A DNA stretch of 22,121 nucleotides from a virus, in the IMG/VR virus record IMGVR_UViG_3300042867_000123, positions 1 through 22,121 of that record. One strand, 5' to 3'. A program made the position numbers and the translations under genes. The stretch's first letter is position 1. Each line of letters opens with the position of its first letter. The notes under the pieces were generated by a model, which was given only the letters and a program-made list of their open reading frames with translations, ran no database searches and was not told where the DNA came from. Below, piece by piece: positions 740-22,121 of the stretch.

Positions 740-990
740 TATTCATCTTCTCCTTTTATTGTTGGACTTGTTGGCAATGTTGCAACTTGCTTAGGAAAAC
801 TGTTTACTTTAAAATTAACTTCTAAAGCTGAAATTCTAAAGTCATGCGCTTGAAAAGTTAGATCGCTTTTGCTTTTATAACTTTCAATTTTGTTAGACAA
901 AATAGATAATTGAGTAAAGTAAGCTATTGCAGCCGCAACAATATAAGCAACTTCTTTAAATTCAAACCTTAATTTAGAAACCTCATTCAT
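739..990 (-). CDS. Single-span membrane protein with coiled-coil (holin or spanin-like)
   Basis: I chose the ATG at 990 because it overlaps the upstream TGA closely and starts the MNEVSKLRFEFKEV segment; a start at 1032 would add only a basic run inside the previous gene. The 83-residue product has one transmembrane segment (about residues 14-30, VAYIVAAAIAYFTQLSIL), then a helical coiled-coil-like domain (SNKIESYKSKSDLTF) and a Pro/Thr-rich acidic tail. Small one-span proteins next to endolysins are often holins or inner-membrane spanins. The stop shares one base with the endolysin ATG (TAATG), giving tight coupling. Confidence 0.6.
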   Translation of the reverse strand: MNEVSKLRFEFKEVAYIVAAAIAYFTQLSILSNKIESYKSKSDLTFQAHDFRISALEVNFKVNSFPKQVATLPTSPTIKGEDE

Positions 991-1333
991 AGTAATATAG
1001 TGCTTTATTTTTCTTTTTATCTTGTAAATCAAATCTTACTCTAATGACTAAAGCACCGCAAGCTGCGCCCCAAATAGTCATGCCCATATCTTTATTAGAA
1101 TAAACGCCCCTATCCATTTTTTTATCCCAAACAACCTCTTTTAATATCCCTGCCGTTGTACCGGCTACAAAGCCCGTTAAGGCACTTAGAAACGGTTTAT
1201 CAATCATTTGATTAGTAACTTCGGCTGTTAGTACTGTAATTCCAAAACCAGCGTAAAAGTGTTTTGTTTTATCGTCTATCTGCGAGTTAAGACAAATAGA
1301 CGACAACAAAAATATGATTAATAATTTACCCAC
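983..1333 (-). CDS. Putative exported membrane protein, YfiM/DUF2279-like
   Basis: The start is GTG at 1333, overlapping the upstream gene by eight bases. The 116-residue product has an N-terminal signal-like segment (MGKLLIIFLLSSICLNSQ), then DDKTKHFYAGFGI, an apolar AGTTAGILKEVVWD region and a NKDMGMTIWGAACGALVIRV region. The DKTKH-AG ... KE-D ... D-M order resembles YfiM/DUF2279-like small membrane proteins. The apolar segments may insert into a membrane, and the C-terminus is charged. It sits in the lysis region but has no proven lysis role. A Cys at residue 14 does not form a good lipobox. Confidence 0.6.
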   Translation of the reverse strand: MGKLLIIFLLSSICLNSQIDDKTKHFYAGFGITVLTAEVTNQMIDKPFLSALTGFVAGTTAGILKEVVWDKKMDRGVYSNKDMGMTIWGAACGALVIRVRFDLQDKKKNKALYYYE

Positions 1334-1505
1334 GTTTTTTTAATTCCTCATTAATGAATTTAATGTTAGCTTGATTTTGCTCAATGATAGCAAGTGAATC
1401 ATAAACTAAGGCTTTTAATTCAGTTGTAGAATAGTCTTCAATTTTCTTTTGTGTTGGGTCGGTTGCTGCAACTTCCTCAACTACTTCTATTTTATCTGTT
1501 TTCAT
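1326..1505 (-). CDS. Small phage protein, 59 residues
   Basis: An ATG at 1505 opens a 59-codon frame ending in TAA at 1326. The product has an acidic N-terminal section (MKTDKIEVVEEVAATDPTQK) followed by a helical coiled-coil-like part (STTELKALVYDSLAIIEQNQ, then NIKFINEELKKRG). The ALVYDSLAIIEQ pattern followed by an I-N-E-E helix is common in small proteins beside fibres in Bacteroidetes phages. It overlaps the GTG start of the next gene by eight bases and lies 18 bases after the fibre stop. A small assembly or chaperone role for the fibre is possible, but not shown. Confidence 0.65.
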   Translation of the reverse strand: MKTDKIEVVEEVAATDPTQKKIEDYSTTELKALVYDSLAIIEQNQANIKFINEELKKRG

Positions 1506-1523
1506 GCTGTAAATATAATAAAA

Positions 1524-3197
1524 TTATGCTAGCAATCCGATTGTTCTTAAAGCCCTTACTATTTTTTCAAGTGTGTACCCATCAAAAGTATCATCGTGCT
1601 TAACGTTTCCGCCTGTTCCGCTTACAACGGTAGCAGAAGCCACAGCAGTAGTAGGTTGTACTATTGGTGTAGAATTGTAGAAACTCAACTTTTGTGATGT
1701 CGACGTACCTATCTTTATCCCAGTAGTTGTATCTATTTTTAAATCAGAAATTAAAGCATTTGCCGAATTAAACCATAGCACTTTATTACCAGCACCATCC
1801 GCAATAATTACATTGTTAGCAAGCGTAGAACTTAATCCAGTTACCTGAGCGCCTATAATTGTATTGCTTCCACCTGTTGTTATCCCCCTTCCAGTATTCC
1901 AACCAATAGCGGTATTAAATGTTCCGCTAGTATGGTCATATAAAGTATTTTTACCTACACCTGTATTAGAACCTCCTGTTGTTTGAAATAAACTTAAATC
2001 GCCAACCGCTGTATTTCCAGTAGCAGTTTGGTTTGAAAAAAGAGCATTAGTACCGATAGCTACATTTTGAGTTCCAGTAGTATTTGAATATAATGTTTCT
2101 GTACCAAAGCCAACGTTAAAACTACCAGTTGTTAGTCTTAAAGCAAAATATCCAAAAGCGCAATTTTTTGTACCTACTATATTTGTTAGTAATGCATTTG
2201 CTCCAAATCCAGTGTTTAAATTAGTAGTTAAGTCATCAGCCACACCGCAACCACTTCCAAAGAAAGTAGAACTTCCTAATCCCTCTTGTGATACCCTTCC
2301 GTTAAACCCAGCAGCATAATTATTAGTTATAGTTGCATTAGTTCCAACGGTAGGGGCATTTACAAAAAGCGAATACGCATTGGTTATTGTACTTGCACCG
2401 ACAAAAGAGTAAGTAGGGCTATTAATTAAAAAACCATGTTGAGCCGTTACAGCACCTGTATTTCTTTGAAGTGTACCTAAAGTGAATGAAACAGTAGGAA
2501 TATTAGCACTTGCCGTTTGAGTTGTATGATTAGCAGCAGTAAAAGTAAAGTTAGTAATAGCACCGCTTGATTGTGCTGCATTTGTAAATACTAAATTACC
2601 ACTTACGCCTGTTATCTGTGGGGTAGTTATATTAGTTGTAAAAGTTGGACTAGTTCCAAAAACTAAACTACCACTTCCTGTTTCGTCGCTTATTACACCT
2701 GCTAATTGAGATGAAGTAGTTGCTGCAAATACGCTTAAATTTTGAGCGTTAACAGCCGCTAAAGTTGTACCGCCTAATCCTGCTAAAGTGTAATTTGGAA
2801 CGTTTAAAACGTTTGCAATTAACGTAGATGCCCCACTTGAACCTGTTGTTGTTAGTGAAGTCGCTGCCGTTCCTAATGTAGTTAAATAAGTTGAACTATC
2901 AACCGTACCATCCGCTTTTAAAAACTGAGTAGAAGTACCACCTGTTTTTATAAAGCCAGTTGTTTCTATTGTTGTTGTTGCAACTTGACCAGCCGTTAAA
3001 ACTTGCTGAATAGTTGGAGTTGACGCACTTACCGTTGGTAAAAAAGACAAAGCACTTAAAGCCGTTACACCATCGCCTAACTTAAATAAGCCAGTCGTAT
3101 CATGATAGGCAGGCTCACCTGCTTTTAATACCATTGCAGCGTTAGCGGTAAACCATGCTGTGTTCTTTGGGTCGTATCTAAATTCTACTGTTGCCAT
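1524..3197 (-). CDS. Long tail fibre with YadA-head-like repeats
   Basis: The 557-residue protein begins with a fibre attachment motif, MVLKAGEPAYHDTTGLFKLG then DGVTALSAL (residues 22-50), common in phage fibres. A shaft rich in Thr, Ser, Ala and Gly follows, with TQFLKADGTVDSSTYL. Residues 328-450 hold eight repeats of 16-17 residues, each beginning N-x-x-hydrophobic-G, such as NVAIGTNALFSNQ and NTAVGDLSLFQTT, as in the beta-roll head of YadA-type trimeric adhesins. The C-terminus, DGYTLEKIVRALRTIGLLA, is a common fibre ending in Bacteroidetes phages. Trimeric assembly and binding to host surface are inferred. It is in the far-left tail region, separate from the fibres near 12-13 kb. Confidence 0.8.
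   Translation of the reverse strand: MATVEFRYDPKNTAWFTANAAMVLKAGEPAYHDTTGLFKLGDGVTALSALSFLPTVSASTPTIQQVLTAGQVATTTIETTGFIKTGGTSTQFLKADGTVDSSTYLTTLGTAATSLTTTGSSGASTLIANVLNVPNYTLAGLGGTTLAAVNAQNLSVFAATTSSQLAGVISDETGSGSLVFGTSPTFTTNITTPQITGVSGNLVFTNAAQSSGAITNFTFTAANHTTQTASANIPTVSFTLGTLQRNTGAVTAQHGFLINSPTYSFVGASTITNAYSLFVNAPTVGTNATITNNYAAGFNGRVSQEGLGSSTFFGSGCGVADDLTTNLNTGFGANALLTNIVGTKNCAFGYFALRLTTGSFNVGFGTETLYSNTTGTQNVAIGTNALFSNQTATGNTAVGDLSLFQTTGGSNTGVGKNTLYDHTSGTFNTAIGWNTGRGITTGGSNTIIGAQVTGLSSTLANNVIIADGAGNKVLWFNSANALISDLKIDTTTGIKIGTSTSQKLSFYNSTPIVQPTTAVASATVVSGTGGNVKHDDTFDGYTLEKIVRALRTIGLLA
1848..2216 (-). repeat. Eight protein-level YadA-head-like repeats in fibre gene
   Basis: The repeat units start at Asn residues 328, 345, 361, 378, 395, 411, 428 and 445 of the fibre. 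The period is 16 or 17 residues, and each unit has a conserved small-hydrophobic-Gly turn. The DNA of the units is well diverged, so this is an old structural repeat rather than a recent tandem duplication. Confidence 0.75.
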
Positions 3198-3791
3198 TTA
3201 TAAAGTTTGAATAATTGTTGCAGGTGCAGGGTCTGTTAATGTTTGAATAATCTCTTGCAATACCTCAACCGTGTAAGTACTATTAGGATTAAGTGTTGCT
3301 ATTACGTTTCCGTTTTGGTCTAAGATTGAAACTAAACCAGCGGTGTTATTATTAGGTGTTAAACAAGTTGAATGGTCATAATGTTGAACTACATTTAATT
3401 CAAAGCCCCAACCACTCACATCGTCATCGTAAACCGATTGTAAAGGTTCTAATGTTATACTTTCATTTACTGTGCAATTATAAATACTTTGTAAATCCGA
3501 TCTAATTTGTGAGAATACTTCCAAAGCTACTTTCTGCATTTCACTCATTAGCACATCCATATTTCTGTTATCTTGGTGTACTAAGTCTAAAAATACAAAA
3601 GCAAAAGACGAACTATGTATGTTAATGTCTAATGTAACTGGGTTAACAGTAACACCCATTAAAGGGTATGTTATTTCATTAGCAGCCCCAAACTCAGGCA
3701 CTCTATCAAACAAAAAAGTACCACTACTTAGTTGGTTGTGGTTTGTTTGTTTGTCTTGGAATAACTGTTTTAGTTGGTTTTGGCTTAACAT
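3198..3791 (-). CDS. Neck/tail-completion-like structural protein
   Basis: The 197-residue protein starts MLSQNQLKQLFQDKQTNHNQ and continues with FLFDRVPEFGAANEITYPLM, strand-rich FAFVFLDLVHQDNRNMD and helical SEMQKVALEVFSQIRSDL segments. It then has SITLEPLQSVYDDDVSGWGF. This order (N-terminal helix, YPLM, D-x-x-x-x-N-x-x, long helix, Asp-rich turn) is one I associate with a small protein after the connector in Bacteroidetes phages, proposed to be a neck or tail-completion component. The start at 3791 keeps the conserved N-terminal helix, even though it overlaps the small gene by 68 bases. The stop is followed directly by the fibre gene start. Confidence 0.55.
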   Translation of the reverse strand: MLSQNQLKQLFQDKQTNHNQLSSGTFLFDRVPEFGAANEITYPLMGVTVNPVTLDINIHSSSFAFVFLDLVHQDNRNMDVLMSEMQKVALEVFSQIRSDLQSIYNCTVNESITLEPLQSVYDDDVSGWGFELNVVQHYDHSTCLTPNNNTAGLVSILDQNGNVIATLNPNSTYTVEVLQEIIQTLTDPAPATIIQTL

Positions 3792-6977: not shown

Positions 6978-7514
6978 TTAAGCAGGTATCAATAGTAAAG
7001 CAGCTAAAGCGTTTGGTACAACGTTTGCGAACGTTCTCTCTTCACCTGTTAACACTATTGTATATCCCGAATCATCATTACCCATTGCACCACTTGCAGC
7101 GGTTGCAGTTGTAATTCTCATTCCGAATTCTTGACCTAATAATCTAAATGCACCGTTCTTATCTTTAACCATCCAAATAGTATCTTGCTTTGCTAACAAT
7201 AAAATTTGTTGAGCCACAGCAGCTTGTTTCTTTGGAATGTATAAATTCAAAGTAATTGCATTCATTAATGTTCCGTTTGTATTAGCGGTTAAAACCTCAG
7301 TCTCATTCGCTTTACCATAGTCAAATTCAAAACCCCACATTTTCTTTCCTGTGTTTAAGAAAGAAGCTACGTTAGTAATACTACCACTTGCAGAGGTAAT
7401 AGTTCCTTGTGTATAGTTAGAAAATTCTACGGCATAAACGTTTGTAAGTCCGGGTGAACCATCTCTACAATCTCTTGCTATTCCCGAGGTTATCGGGCAA
7501 CTTGATAATGCCAT
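6978..7514 (-). CDS. Small structural protein, possible tail tube or head decoration
   Basis: The 178-residue protein starts SSCPITSGIARDCRDGSPG and contains strand-rich segments (GTITSASGSITNVASFL, KKMWGFEFDYG). Its C-terminal part reads FRLLGQEFGMRITT, then GNDDSGYTIVLTGEERTF. This last pattern, with a D-x-x-G-Y-T strand followed by a Glu-rich turn, recurs in small structural proteins of Bacteroidetes phages that may be tail tube proteins. It sits between the capsid gene and a strong terminator, which suggests high-level expression with the capsid. Tail tube, neck or decoration protein cannot be told apart from the sequence alone. Confidence 0.5.
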   Translation of the reverse strand: MALSSCPITSGIARDCRDGSPGLTNVYAVEFSNYTQGTITSASGSITNVASFLNTGKKMWGFEFDYGKANETEVLTANTNGTLMNAITLNLYIPKKQAAVAQQILLLAKQDTIWMVKDKNGAFRLLGQEFGMRITTATAASGAMGNDDSGYTIVLTGEERTFANVVPNALAALLLIPA

Positions 7515-7536
7515 GTTTTTATATTTTTTTAATTAA

Positions 7537-7560
7537 GAGGGGTAAACTTAATTACCCCTC
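7537..7560 (-). terminator. Stem-loop after major capsid gene
   Basis: A perfect 9-pair stem (GAGGGGTAA with TTACCCCTC) encloses a six-base loop between the capsid stop and the next ATG at 7514. In the sense direction it is followed by TTAATT and then A-rich sequence, so it lacks a good U-tract for full termination. On the plus strand it is followed by T-rich sequence, but no plus-strand genes occur here. I favour an mRNA-processing, attenuation or stability hairpin. Confidence 0.6.
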
Positions 7561-7579
7561 AATTTATTTATTTATTTAT

Positions 7580-8491
7580 CTAAACCCCAAGGTAGCGGTA
7601 TACCCTTGACGGAAAAGCAATTTGTACTCCTAGTTTCCACTCAGCATGAAACTTTAAGTTTTGATCGTCATCTGATTTCCAAACTTTGAATTTCTCTTCT
7701 TCGTTAGCCATGTCAGTTCCGATGTACATATTTTCTGGCTCGATAGCGTAGATGTAATTTAAACCAGATAAACCAGCAACTTCAACGATTTCAATGTTTG
7801 CACCCTCAGCATATAATTTGCTTTCTTCACCTGTAGTGTTGAATAAATTATCAGTACGTAATTTGAAACGGTATGTTGCAGCCATTTGAGGTGACATTAA
7901 CATTTTGACAGTTGGGTTACCTTGGTAAACGTCATTGTTAGCAATAACTAAAGTAGCTAAACCCTTTATGACGGTTCTAGAATTTGCCTCACTCCAAGCT
8001 ACGCCTGAATAAGTACCACCGATTGTAGCAGCACCAATGATTTTTACAAACCCATCAAAACGATTTAAGTAAGCGTTTGTTGAAGTTGTATCACCTTGCC
8101 ATAAAGCAATTTCAATATCTTCTTTAGCTTGTTGCATAGTGTCATCGATAATTTCTTTGCTATAAGCTAAAGAATCATAATCACCACCTGCAGCTAATTT
8201 TCTTTGAGTGAAATACGGCTCTAAGTCACGCTCGCACCAAAGCATGTCAATTTTAGTTTTACCTACTGTGATAGTACGTTGTGAAATTGTAGTTGAACCA
8301 GATGCGTTAAAAGCACATGATTGAGCTTGAAATACACCACGAGTGTTAACCACGTTAATAGTTTCAGCCGACTTAATGCCAGTCTGTTTGTTTTTCACTA
8401 AATCCATTGTTGGTGAACCTGAGAAAAGTTTTTGATAAATCAGTTGTTCTGGTTGCTCTACATACGATGGAGCTGTTATTGAATATGCCAT
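7580..8491 (-). CDS. Major capsid protein (HK97-fold type)
   Basis: The 303-residue protein is the best capsid candidate. It follows the protease and scaffold genes and has the mixed alpha/beta pattern of HK97-like shells: a helical spine segment (AYSKEIIDDTMQQAKEDIEI), a strand-rich P-domain region with NPTVKMLMSPQM, the TDNLFNTTGEESKLY loop, and a C-terminal strand series ending SRVYRYLGV. There is no long N-terminal delta domain, which agrees with a separate scaffold protein. The upstream leader is A-rich (AAACAAAATAAA) with no Shine-Dalgarno site and lacks the 11-base leader of its neighbours. A strong hairpin lies just after the stop and may protect or process this abundant mRNA. Confidence 0.85.
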   Translation of the reverse strand: MAYSITAPSYVEQPEQLIYQKLFSGSPTMDLVKNKQTGIKSAETINVVNTRGVFQAQSCAFNASGSTTISQRTITVGKTKIDMLWCERDLEPYFTQRKLAAGGDYDSLAYSKEIIDDTMQQAKEDIEIALWQGDTTSTNAYLNRFDGFVKIIGAATIGGTYSGVAWSEANSRTVIKGLATLVIANNDVYQGNPTVKMLMSPQMAATYRFKLRTDNLFNTTGEESKLYAEGANIEIVEVAGLSGLNYIYAIEPENMYIGTDMANEEEKFKVWKSDDDQNLKFHAEWKLGVQIAFPSRVYRYLGV

Positions 8492-18567: not shown

Positions 18568-19707
18568 TTAGGCAAATGAATATCTGCCTGAGCCTTTATT
18601 TATCTTATTAAGAGCTACATAACGAATAGCATCAATAGTGTGATTATTAAAATCAACGGGTATATTTTTACCATCTATCCATTTATAAGATCTAAACTCT
18701 TTTATGGTATAAGTTGACGTTCTTGTTATGTTAATCTTAAATTGCTTTAAAGTGTCTATTGAATTACGGATACTATCTGCCCCTTTGTTAGCCCCTTGAA
18801 TATTAAAACCTGCCCTTGTTAAGTCTTCAATACTTTTAGGCTCGGCACTATCCGCAACTATTGGCATGGCACGTGTTACACCTAACCTTGTTAATTCGTT
18901 TGCAATATCGCTATTGGTTAATCCTGTGCGATATAACAGCTCGTCTATGTATATCTCACTATTGTACCTAAATACTTTTATAACCGTTGTAGGGTCATTA
19001 GTAAAGCCAAAGTCCATACCTATTCCAAGTAACTCAGCACCCAAAGGAATGTTATCTACAATATCAAAGTTTCTAAAGACTAAGCCCTCTATTTTCCCAG
19101 TCATGCCACGTGCATAAACCTTGAATAGTTCCATATCTTTAAAGCGTAAACCCTCTATTTTATCACGTATCTTTTGAGCAACGAATGGATTGTGCCTGTG
19201 GTCGGATATAAATAACTTTACGCCATCCGTACCTATTAAATTCTCATGCACCCAGAACTCAGCATTGGGATTGTAGTCGATATAAACTTGTTTACGGGTA
19301 CGCATATACAATTCGTTAAATATATCGTATGTTATGCCCTGTGCTTCGTTTATGAATAGATAATCCCTTTTACCAGACTTTGCACCTTGGGCGGTCTCAT
19401 AAGATTTAAACTCCATAACTGAGCCATTAGCAAATTGAAAGATACGGTCTGTTCTATTGTAGTCTGCTATCTTATGCCTAAGTTGTTCGCTATTGTTATA
19501 AATATCTAAGGCATCACGTAACGCCCCGGCTTTTAAGTTAGGGATTGATTCGCCAACAACTGTGATAACTATTGGCGATTGAATAGCTTTAGTGAATAGG
19601 ACTTGTAAAATGGAATAGGTTTTTCCTGAGCTGCTCCCGCCTTGATTGACTAGTACATCTTCGGTGGCAAAGTAATTGGCTTCGTATAGGCATGAGGTTT
19701 TAAACAC
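18568..19707 (-). CDS. terL: Terminase large subunit (DNA packaging ATPase/nuclease)
   Basis: The 379-residue protein has both halves of a large terminase. The ATPase shows Walker A GGSSSGKT (residues 23-30), a Walker B-like YLFINEAQ with E121 as catalytic glutamate and N120 in place of the usual Asp, and a coupling motif YIDYNP (142-147). The RNase H-like nuclease shows D232 (GMDFGFTNDP), D286 (VADSAEPK) and D359 (TIDAIRY), the expected metal-binding acidic triad. The short N-terminus before Walker A and the overall pattern resemble PBSX-type terminases (Terminase_3 and Terminase_3C), although it is somewhat short. The start is GTG at 19707: the in-frame stop lies at 19714-19716, and the nearby ATG at 19709 is in another frame. 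It packages DNA through the portal at 4383-6485. Confidence 0.95.
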   Translation of the reverse strand: MFKTSCLYEANYFATEDVLVNQGGSSSGKTYSILQVLFTKAIQSPIVITVVGESIPNLKAGALRDALDIYNNSEQLRHKIADYNRTDRIFQFANGSVMEFKSYETAQGAKSGKRDYLFINEAQGITYDIFNELYMRTRKQVYIDYNPNAEFWVHENLIGTDGVKLFISDHRHNPFVAQKIRDKIEGLRFKDMELFKVYARGMTGKIEGLVFRNFDIVDNIPLGAELLGIGMDFGFTNDPTTVIKVFRYNSEIYIDELLYRTGLTNSDIANELTRLGVTRAMPIVADSAEPKSIEDLTRAGFNIQGANKGADSIRNSIDTLKQFKINITRTSTYTIKEFRSYKWIDGKNIPVDFNNHTIDAIRYVALNKINKGSGRYSFA

Positions 19708-19708
19708 A

Positions 19709-20119
19709 TTAATCTAAACTAATATCCTTTTCATTACTACTCAATGGTGAATCGCTTTTAATAATCTCAACTGTTGTATTGAGGTTTATGTTTTCGTTTT
19801 TAGACTCGACCTCTTGTTTAGGTTGCCCGTAAACTCTATTAAGTAAAATTTCCATTGAATATAACGTTCCCTTTTCAATGCCTCTTTTAATAGCGTTGGC
19901 AACTGTTTTTTCTAATACAGTAGAGTTATCATCTTTAAATACTTCTGCTAATTCTGTAATAGTCATAGCCATCATATTTTCAATGGTTTGAGTTATGTCT
20001 TGTTTATTGTAACCCATATCTTTTAATTGACAAACGAATTTACGAGGTCTTCCGTGTGGGTTTCCTGTTTGCCCCTTTGTATAGGGTATTAAGTTTTTGT
20101 GTCCGTCGCTACTTGGCAT
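19709..20119 (-). CDS. terS: Terminase small subunit-like DNA-binding protein
   Basis: This 136-residue protein lies directly upstream of the large terminase gene, the usual place for the small subunit, which recognises phage DNA and delivers it to the motor. It starts with the basic KGQTGNPHGRPRK box (residues 15-27), common to DUF5681-like phage/terminase-associated proteins. A predicted helix-turn-helix-like stretch follows (about 36-60), then a helical SMEILLNRVYGQPKQ segment, then an acidic, Ser/Asn-rich tail. The ATG is one base after the stop of the dioxygenase gene, and the TAA lies two bases before the large-subunit GTG start, so all three are probably co-translated. The assignment rests on position plus the basic box. 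Confidence 0.75.
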   Translation of the reverse strand: MPSSDGHKNLIPYTKGQTGNPHGRPRKFVCQLKDMGYNKQDITQTIENMMAMTITELAEVFKDDNSTVLEKTVANAIKRGIEKGTLYSMEILLNRVYGQPKQEVESKNENINLNTTVEIIKSDSPLSSNEKDISLD

Positions 20120-20120
20120 A

Positions 20121-20903
20121 TTAGTCTAAGTTTTTAAATGCTTTTAATGGGTAAAATACTAAACTGTTTCTGTAACCGCCTTCGTGGGTTGGTACTATTG
20201 GTGTTACACCATGCAAGTTTCTCCATGCCGGATATACCAGCATTGAGTTATCGCAGCTATCCATTGTAGCGCCATAATCCGGAACTGTTGTATTCCCTCC
20301 TTTAGCGTTTCTTTTTTTTGCTATTATTACATTAACACAACCTTCTAAGTTTCCAGCATCCCTATGAAATGGTGCTGATATATTATAATTGGAGATTGAA
20401 CTTGTAAATAATTCACTAAACCTATATTTTACAGATGCATTTTTTTGTATTATCTCTTTTTGCCTTTCGTATATATGAGGTGTTAATTCTTTTATTATCT
20501 GCTCGCTTTCTTTAGCTAATAGGTACATTGCCTTTATAAATGTTTGAGCAGATTTTACAGAGTGAACACTTGATACAGTTGCATAAGGTCTTCTCATGTG
20601 AGGTTTTGGAGGAACACCACCTAATATTGTACTATACTGTAATACTTCTTTTTCAGAGTTATGCAGTCCGCTTGACCTTTTCATTACTGACTTTGGTACA
20701 TTTTTACTTCTCAACTCGGCATCCGCTAATTCAGCAAGTTTTTTAGCCTTTATGGAGTAAGTACCTATATCCTTAATATAAAACCCGATTGGCTCATTAT
20801 TAAAATAAAACATTGAATCCTCTGTTATATTAGGCTCAATATGTCCGCAAACATCCCCTATTTGGACATTATGCTCTAGCTTAATTAAATCAATTCTTTT
20901 CAT
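20121..20903 (-). CDS. TET/JBP-like 2-oxoglutarate/Fe(II) dioxygenase
   Basis: The 260-residue product carries, in its C-terminal third, the ligand set of 2OG-Fe(II) dioxygenases: H180-R-D182 (HxD), distal H231 in LHGVTPI, and R245 in YRNSLVFY for 2-oxoglutarate. The surrounding pattern (NYNISAPFHRDAGN, then GGNTTVPDYG, then MLVYPAW before the distal His) resembles the TET/JBP group that oxidises methyl groups on DNA pyrimidines, including phage members. The N-terminal 170 residues hold a mixed helical region I cannot assign. ATG 20903 is preferred; upstream in-frame ATGs (20915, 20948) lie deeper in the FkbM gene. The gene overlaps the FkbM gene end by 14 bases and ends one base before the terminase small subunit ATG. 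The dioxygenase fold is well supported; DNA as substrate is inference, since a protein or metabolite hydroxylase could share these motifs. Confidence 0.7.
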   Translation of the reverse strand: MKRIDLIKLEHNVQIGDVCGHIEPNITEDSMFYFNNEPIGFYIKDIGTYSIKAKKLAELADAELRSKNVPKSVMKRSSGLHNSEKEVLQYSTILGGVPPKPHMRRPYATVSSVHSVKSAQTFIKAMYLLAKESEQIIKELTPHIYERQKEIIQKNASVKYRFSELFTSSISNYNISAPFHRDAGNLEGCVNVIIAKKRNAKGGNTTVPDYGATMDSCDNSMLVYPAWRNLHGVTPIVPTHEGGYRNSLVFYPLKAFKNLD

Positions 20904-21573
20904 AACAAAATACATTAGTACAAGGTGCAACAAATCCGGGAGGAACAACTAAATCATAAAATCTCTTATCTATAAATTTCATTTCGTATCTTTGCATTAG
21001 TAGATTACAACATTCTCTAAATCTATTAAGGTTCTTGTCAATATCAAAACTCCATTCATAAACCATTTTTTTAAATACTTTCTTTGTATTTTCTAAAATT
21101 AACATTTCAGCACCTTCAATATCCATTTTACAACAATCGAAATTTTTAGCCTCAACATCAAAATTTAAGCATGGGACTTTCAATCCTTTATTATTCCATT
21201 TCTTTACAATTGAATTTCTCCAAACATTACCATTATTACCAATAAATAAAATAACTTCTTTCACTTCATTATGTACTAGAGCAGCCTGCTTTATAGTTGC
21301 TTTAAATCCATTAAGGTCTAAGTTCTTTTTAATCATTTCGCAGTTAAAAGGATCCGGCTCATAAACAGTAACATTAGCACCCATTGAACAAGCTAATAAT
21401 GTGAAAGCACCAACATTACCGCCACAATCCATCCAAGTTTCATTTTGTTTAATTGTCATGCCTTTTTTTAAATAAACTTCTTTTCCTAAAACCTCATTAA
21501 AAGTTTTAAGTTCTGACATACCTTCTCTATGAAAAAATTTAATCCCTTTTATTTCCCCTTCGATTAGTTTCAT
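20890..21573 (-). CDS. FkbM-family SAM-dependent methyltransferase
   Basis: This 227-residue protein has the FkbM pattern: SAM-binding motif I DCGGNVG at residues 49-55, the acidic ribose-binding loop VYEPDP with E72, and the family signature KMDIEGAE at 149-156. FkbM enzymes usually O-methylate hydroxyl groups of sugars or small molecules. I chose the ATG at 21573 because it overlaps the upstream TGA as ATGA, follows a purine-rich stretch, and starts just before the conserved region. An in-frame ATG at 21642 would add 23 Arg/Lys-rich residues lying inside the ParB-like gene and is probably not used. The gene lies between a ParB-like protein and a TET/JBP-like dioxygenase. Its substrate cannot be read from sequence: a hydroxylated DNA base, a glycan or a protein are all possible. 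Confidence 0.85.
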   Translation of the reverse strand: MKLIEGEIKGIKFFHREGMSELKTFNEVLGKEVYLKKGMTIKQNETWMDCGGNVGAFTLLACSMGANVTVYEPDPFNCEMIKKNLDLNGFKATIKQAALVHNEVKEVILFIGNNGNVWRNSIVKKWNNKGLKVPCLNFDVEAKNFDCCKMDIEGAEMLILENTKKVFKKMVYEWSFDIDKNLNRFRECCNLLMQRYEMKFIDKRFYDLVVPPGFVAPCTNVFCYEKN

Positions 21574-22121
21574 ATCTTTTCTTTTTCTTCTTTTAAATAC
21601 TCCATAATCATTCCTCCTACATATGCCTTTTGGTCTCTCCAAAATTTAACAAGTTCATAAGCTTGGTCGTAATGTTCAGCCTCAAATTCTATTTGGATGG
21701 CTTTTTTAACACCATCTGTCATATCATTTAATTGTCCTGATACATCTTCATCATCTAAAATAGAATAATCAACCTCTGCAGCAAAATTAGGCAAATCTAA
21801 ACCCCAACTTTCCAATTCCAAAGCATCCCAGTCGTTTAATAATTGCCAATCCCATTCGCCACCTGATAGGTTATCCTTAATCAAAAATTCCCTTTGTTTC
21901 TCCTCAGATAATCCACTTGCTTTAATAATCGATACTTCCTTTAACCCAGCTTCTTTGCATGCTTTAAAACGCATATTTCCGCCCAATATAATCATATCAT
22001 CATTAACCACTATCGGTCTGATATTTAACATTTCGGGGAAGTCTTTTATAGACTGAACCAACTTGGCAAACTTATCGTCCTTAATTAACCGAGGGTTATT
22101 TGGATTAAGTTTAATTTTACT
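21570..22121 (-). CDS. ParB/Srx-fold nuclease-like domain protein, 5' part missing
   Basis: The frame is open to the right window edge, so the N-terminus is cut off; 183 codons and a TGA stop are visible. The first visible residues, SKIKLNPNNPR, followed by a stretch reading LNIRPIVVNDDMIILGGNMR, match the start of the ParB/sulfiredoxin-like domain, with the GGNMR segment in the place of the family's G-x-R box. The later DWDALELESWGLDLPNF segment is the kind of linker seen when such domains precede DNA methyltransferases, but here no methyltransferase domain follows and the protein ends in a charged tail (KEEKEKI). A TTG at 22061 could be read as a start, but the domain clearly continues upstream of it. 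The stop overlaps the next ATG by four bases (ATGA), implying translational coupling to the FkbM-like gene. Phage ParB-like proteins are linked to DNA binding, nicking or base modification; the exact role here is unknown. Confidence 0.8.
   Translation of the reverse strand, partial: SKIKLNPNNPRLIKDDKFAKLVQSIKDFPEMLNIRPIVVNDDMIILGGNMRFKACKEAGLKEVSIIKASGLSEEKQREFLIKDNLSGGEWDWQLLNDWDALELESWGLDLPNFAAEVDYSILDDEDVSGQLNDMTDGVKKAIQIEFEAEHYDQAYELVKFWRDQKAYVGGMIMEYLKEEKEKI

Follow-up and report, generated by a model that had tools for sequence, protein, structure and literature searches.

Genes of the cassette at the terminase

The window, a virus record of 22,121 bases, covers a tailed-phage structural region that is read from the minus strand and in which ParB, FkbM methyltransferase, TET, a probable small terminase subunit, and the large terminase subunit are encoded in this order, with overlaps or near-zero gaps. 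The gene for the TET/JBP-type Fe(II)/2-oxoglutarate dioxygenase (20121..20903, minus strand; 260 amino acids) is complete, with its ATG at 20903 and the end of its stop codon at 20121. As the earlier note had it, the gene lies beside the terminase: it adjoins the gene for the probable small subunit (19709..20119, minus strand), which was assigned by a DUF5681 match above the cut-off and by its place just ahead of the large subunit, and this is followed by the large subunit itself (18568..19707, minus strand), with matches to PF17288 and PF04466 above the cut-off and to several PHROG terminase families. On the other side, the 3′ end of the FkbM methyltransferase gene (20890..21573, minus strand) shares 14 bases with the start of the TET gene, and its own start is overlapped by the stop of the gene for a ParB/Srx-fold protein (21570..22121, minus strand), which is cut by the window end.

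The ParB protein matches phrog_620 (ParB-like; E = 3.5e-23) and, slightly below the cut-off, PF02195 (E = 8.9e-6); a complete copy of 191 amino acids is found at positions 3745-4320 of L001, a 36-kb contig identical to the window. Upstream of ParB, outside the window, L001 carries three further genes (871-3413), one of which matches the glycosyltransferase family phrog_7162 (E = 1.3e-39; 1.7 kb upstream of ParB), and two of which have no family; they could serve a modification pathway or host-surface modification. The product of L189:10382-11119, again from phage sequence that the window does not cover, resembles by eye phage PAPS-reductase-like proteins.

The FkbM-family methyltransferase (Methyltransf_21) was identified by PF05050 (E = 5.9e-9) and TIGR01444 (fkbM_fam), both above the cut-off, and by phrog_28597 (E = 2.8e-74). 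A SAM motif (D-x-GGNVGAF-like) and the motif KMDIEGAE are conserved in its close relatives. The nearest structures to its model (pLDDT 79) are class I methyltransferases of nucleic acids, for example Trm5a and RlmK (Z 14.7), a resemblance that is weak evidence, because the class I fold is common and does not reveal the substrate.

Family and fold of the dioxygenase

Pfam assigns residues 105-251 of the dioxygenase to Tet_JBP (PF12851) with an E value of 5.5e-11 and 42.4 bits (cut-off, 34.9), and no other 2OG-Fe(II) family appeared in a search up to an E value of 1. The active-site residues named before, the HxD pair H180/D182, the distal histidine H231, and the 2-oxoglutarate-binding arginine R245, were placed correctly and are, together with N172, invariant across relatives: in an alignment of 28 close relatives, in 22 relatives of 47 to 74% identity, and in a set of 11 that includes actinobacteriophage and cyanophage proteins of 23 to 25% identity. 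The family match is not due to chance. Searching PDB sequences with the sequence and with profiles gave only noise, with no TET among the matches, and NCBIfam has no model for the protein; its kinship to the solved TETs is visible by Pfam and fold only.

The AlphaFold (AF2) model, built from the 28-sequence alignment, has a mean pLDDT of 81 and a pTM of 0.85, with detail limited in the low-confidence segments 96-109 and 174-178. Foldseek returned CcTet and NgTet1 in the top matches, with FTO interleaved. In a second structural comparison, TET2 came first (Z 15.0, rmsd 3.9, 230 aligned residues), with NgTet1 (Z 14.7, rmsd 3.2, 204 aligned), CcTet (Z 13.2), and CMD1 (Z 12.9), and the non-TET folds FTO (Z 11.7), ABH3 (10.9), and PHD2 (10.0) scored lower. 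Furthermore, a viral structure model annotated as JBP1/TET oxygenase matched with an E value of 3.4e-15. The TET/JBP membership claimed from the sequence alone is thereby borne out by Pfam, by the conserved active site, and by a fold that is nearest to the solved TETs, and we regard the enzyme as a predicted methyl hydroxylase of DNA pyrimidines. One part of the earlier note did not hold: it had left the N-terminal 170 residues unassigned and imagined a recognition domain of their own there. Although the Pfam match starts at residue 105, the structural alignments with NgTet1 and TET2 cover residues 1-260, and the N terminus is therefore part of the TET-like catalytic domain; a separate recognition domain was rejected.

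The shared fold of FTO, ABH3, and PHD2, with Z scores of 10 to 11.7, could also be read as pointing to a 2OG-Fe(II) hydroxylase of the protein, metabolite, or alkylated-DNA repair type that modifies no base. We consider this very improbable, as TETs lead in both structural comparisons, Tet_JBP is the only 2OG family found by Pfam up to an E value of 1, and TAGT and ADDT families belong to the cassette in which the gene is firmly embedded (see below). Still less credence can be given to the queuine tRNA-ribosyltransferase (7-deazaguanine insertion enzyme) that is suggested by the label of phrog_6059, by several GenBank records of relatives, and by the RefSeq labels for phages MED4-117 and Acadian. 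In both the window protein (no DpdA/TGT match up to an E value of 1) and Acadian gp2, Pfam detects Tet_JBP but no transglycosylase domain, and the fold is that of a TET; the label was rejected and appears to be a propagated error. Relatives that carry such labels are phrog_6059, NC_020857.1, NC_020847.1, and NC_023701.1 (Acadian gp2, L084:813-1691), and one GenBank record is labeled DpdA-like.

The exchangeable slot between ParB and TET

Relatives were collected by searching viral contigs for homologues of the window TET (214 found, 80 kept), to which a query with the MED4-117 protein added 80 (of 166) and a query from an Oscillatoria MAG 12 more. Among the loci with at least 2.6 kb of upstream sequence, 103 of 104 had a ParB match upstream of TET, and the sole exception, L087, has an evident ParB-like open reading frame at 7406-8014 that the search had missed, so that ParB is present in 104 of 104. 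The cassette reads ParB-[slot]-TET-terminase, and TET is its fixed member. As the constant partner, ParB would perhaps be a DNA-binding or targeting component.

What lies between ParB and TET is variable. FkbM occupies this slot in 87 loci (and in 11 more with ParB off the contig), 38 have nothing there, and 36 have another gene. The other genes encode TAGT (TET-Associated Glycosyltransferase, PF20691; some above and some below the cut-off), ADDT (Amino acid:DNA transferase, PF18724) together with glutamine-amidotransferase-like and P-loop genes, a DXD glycosyltransferase, and a few unassigned proteins. The earlier note had not linked the overlapping FkbM gene to TET, although the same position holds TAGT or ADDT in other phages. 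Slot proteins of about 300 amino acids in L058 (4158-5060), L062 (922-1839), and L085 (7075-8001) have no Pfam match above the cut-off, those of L058 and L085 no PHROG match either, and they are possibly unrecognised tailoring enzymes.

After dereplication to 69 sequences, FkbM is the commonest form in this sample (27), with an empty slot in 19, TAGT in 16, ADDT in 4, and other genes in 3. On the TET tree of these sequences, the state of the slot changed at least 25 times, compared to 35 times with shuffled labels, a count that is approximate because the tree was built quickly and some of its branches are long. Hence, the slot state is heritable over short times, yet often exchanged. The window TET itself groups with L006, whose TET is 89 to 90% identical and which has TAGT in the slot, and with L004 (86%), whose slot is empty; L005, within 86 to 90% identity, also has no slot gene. 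The tailoring gene in the slot has been swapped repeatedly. Among 26 long records, FkbM (13 records), TAGT (4), and ADDT (3) never co-occur, and FkbM was found solely in the slot position.

This gene context, with TAGT and ADDT in the relatives, makes a DNA-modification role of TET well supported and agrees with the role in DNA hypermodification proposed earlier.

Substrate, product, and relation to known systems

The cassette may be read as a small pathway. TET would hydroxylate the 5-methyl group of a pyrimidine in the phage DNA, most likely thymine, before or during packaging, and its product would then most likely be 5-hydroxymethyluracil, as with JBP. Thymine is the likelier substrate, because relatives couple TET to thymidine-hypermodification genes and 22 of the 26 long records are without a C5-cytosine methyltransferase. 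Kinase-like and ADDT genes are present in some of the relatives (ADDT was not found in L001), and the authors who described phage Tonitrus interpreted its cassette as one for thymidine hypermodification that includes a 5-hmU DNA kinase (PMC11955845). Profile searches detected no C5 methyltransferase in L001 or in the isolate genome of MED4-117, and no thymidylate synthase homologue in any of the 26 long records, so that a thymidylate-synthase route to hydroxymethyl-dUMP was rejected; the profiles for both enzymes matched in most control genomes, and the window record and those compared with it may be incomplete. Thus, the earlier remark that no cytosine methyltransferase is visible holds, and extends to the 22 relatives, but the need for methylation from the host or from outside the window, which had been derived from it, largely falls away if thymine is the substrate.

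Alternatively, the substrate of TET may be 5-methylcytosine that a C5 methyltransferase of host or phage has made; its oxidation to 5-hydroxymethylcytosine would then be followed by decoration through the slot enzyme, on the pattern of the phage TET systems of Burke et al. (2021). The nearest solved folds are indeed 5-methylcytosine oxidases, and, according to the summary in PMC12730594, the phage TETs characterised so far partner with C5 methyltransferases and glycosyltransferases. C5 methyltransferases were present in 4 of the 26 long records, and a homology search placed relatives of them in the regions flanking 8 of 180 loci, of which seven belong to phages with an empty slot; therefore, 5-methylcytosine may be the substrate in some phages. 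In L046, L047, L049, L051, L052, L055, and L056, the C5-cytosine methyltransferase lies about 0.7 kb upstream of ParB and the slot is empty, and phages of this type are possibly a 5-methylcytosine-using branch. For the window TET, we hold 5-methylcytosine to be rather unlikely, since 22 of 26 long relatives, including MED4-117 and the window-identical contig, show no such methyltransferase, even if the host could supply 5-methylcytosine, and since in several relatives TET is coupled to thymidine-pathway genes, namely ADDT and kinase.

With thymine as the preferred substrate, the FkbM methyltransferase would act on the TET product, most simply by O-methylation of the new hydroxyl. Direct O-methylation is the simplest assumption because FkbM, TAGT, and ADDT are mutually exclusive among the 26 records and because the 13 FkbM records are without a GT2 or GT1 glycosyltransferase above the cut-off. 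It is also imaginable that a glycosyltransferase adds a sugar to the hydroxymethylpyrimidine and that FkbM methylates this sugar and not the base substituent. FkbM enzymes typically methylate hydroxyls of sugars, TAGT fills the same slot in relatives, and the phrog_7162 glycosyltransferase upstream of ParB in L001 means that the methyl group could go on a base-attached sugar here. However, that glycosyltransferase could instead serve the host surface, FkbM and TAGT co-occur in none of the 26 records, and no GT2 or GT1 enzyme above the cut-off was found in the 13 FkbM records, so that the idea of FkbM being generally paired with a glycosyltransferase was rejected and we judge methylation of a sugar to be unlikely. 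On balance, we favor a route in which TET probably makes 5-hydroxymethyluracil in the phage DNA and FkbM O-methylates 5-hydroxymethyluracil or a derivative of it. The finished base would go unrecognised by host nucleases, and the modified DNA would likely be shielded from bacterial defenses such as restriction.

The closest known systems are the Prochlorococcus phages MED4-117, MED4-184, and P-HS2, whose TETs (phrog_6059 proteins) are 56% identical to that of the window, and MED4-117 has the same gene order of ParB, FkbM, TET, a small gene, and terminase. These phages differ in that they infect another host group and that their TET is annotated as hypothetical or as queuine tRNA-ribosyltransferase. 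The actinobacteriophages Acadian, MakoManhole, and Tonitrus likewise have a leftmost operon that combines ParB and TET/JBP with tailoring genes and terminase, as ParB-TET-TAGT in Acadian and ParB-TET-ADDT-Ploopntkinase3 in the other two, but their TETs are just 23 to 25% identical to the window's, and the tailoring genes are TAGT or ADDT plus kinase instead of FkbM and follow TET, whereas the FkbM gene of the window lies between ParB and TET. The phage TETs of Burke et al. (2021), a work cited in PMC12730594, also feed base hypermodification; they are reportedly active on 5-methylcytosine and act with C5 methyltransferases, genes that are absent from most relatives here. JBP1 and JBP2 of kinetoplastids, which make base J, resemble our model in the substrate, thymine (predicted here), and in the subsequent decoration of the hydroxymethyl group. 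The JBPs are larger multidomain proteins and their decoration is glucose, whereas the neighbor of the window TET is a methyltransferase.

Phage TETs accompanied by tailoring enzymes are already recognised as a kind, for which Pfam itself names the TAGT and ADDT families, and therefore, the TET gene alone is no surprise. The most worthwhile leads are the variant with a methyltransferase in the slot, the product predicted for it, and the fact that it occurs in cultured cyanophages, from which DNA is measurable now. We found no account of the FkbM-TET pairing in the papers searched, which is a weak absence; Iyer 2013 may already mention it. Tentatively, phages with FkbM in the slot might carry an undescribed O-methylated hydroxymethylpyrimidine, for example 5-methoxymethyluracil, in a cassette with an exchanged finishing enzyme that would switch between methyl, sugar, and amino-acid chemistries, a combination that we hold to be less likely than not. 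The added value lies in the single slot beside a near-constant TET, which takes up a methyltransferase, a glycosyltransferase, an amino-acid transferase, or nothing; its exchange would be a direct record of phages trading DNA chemistry under host pressure.
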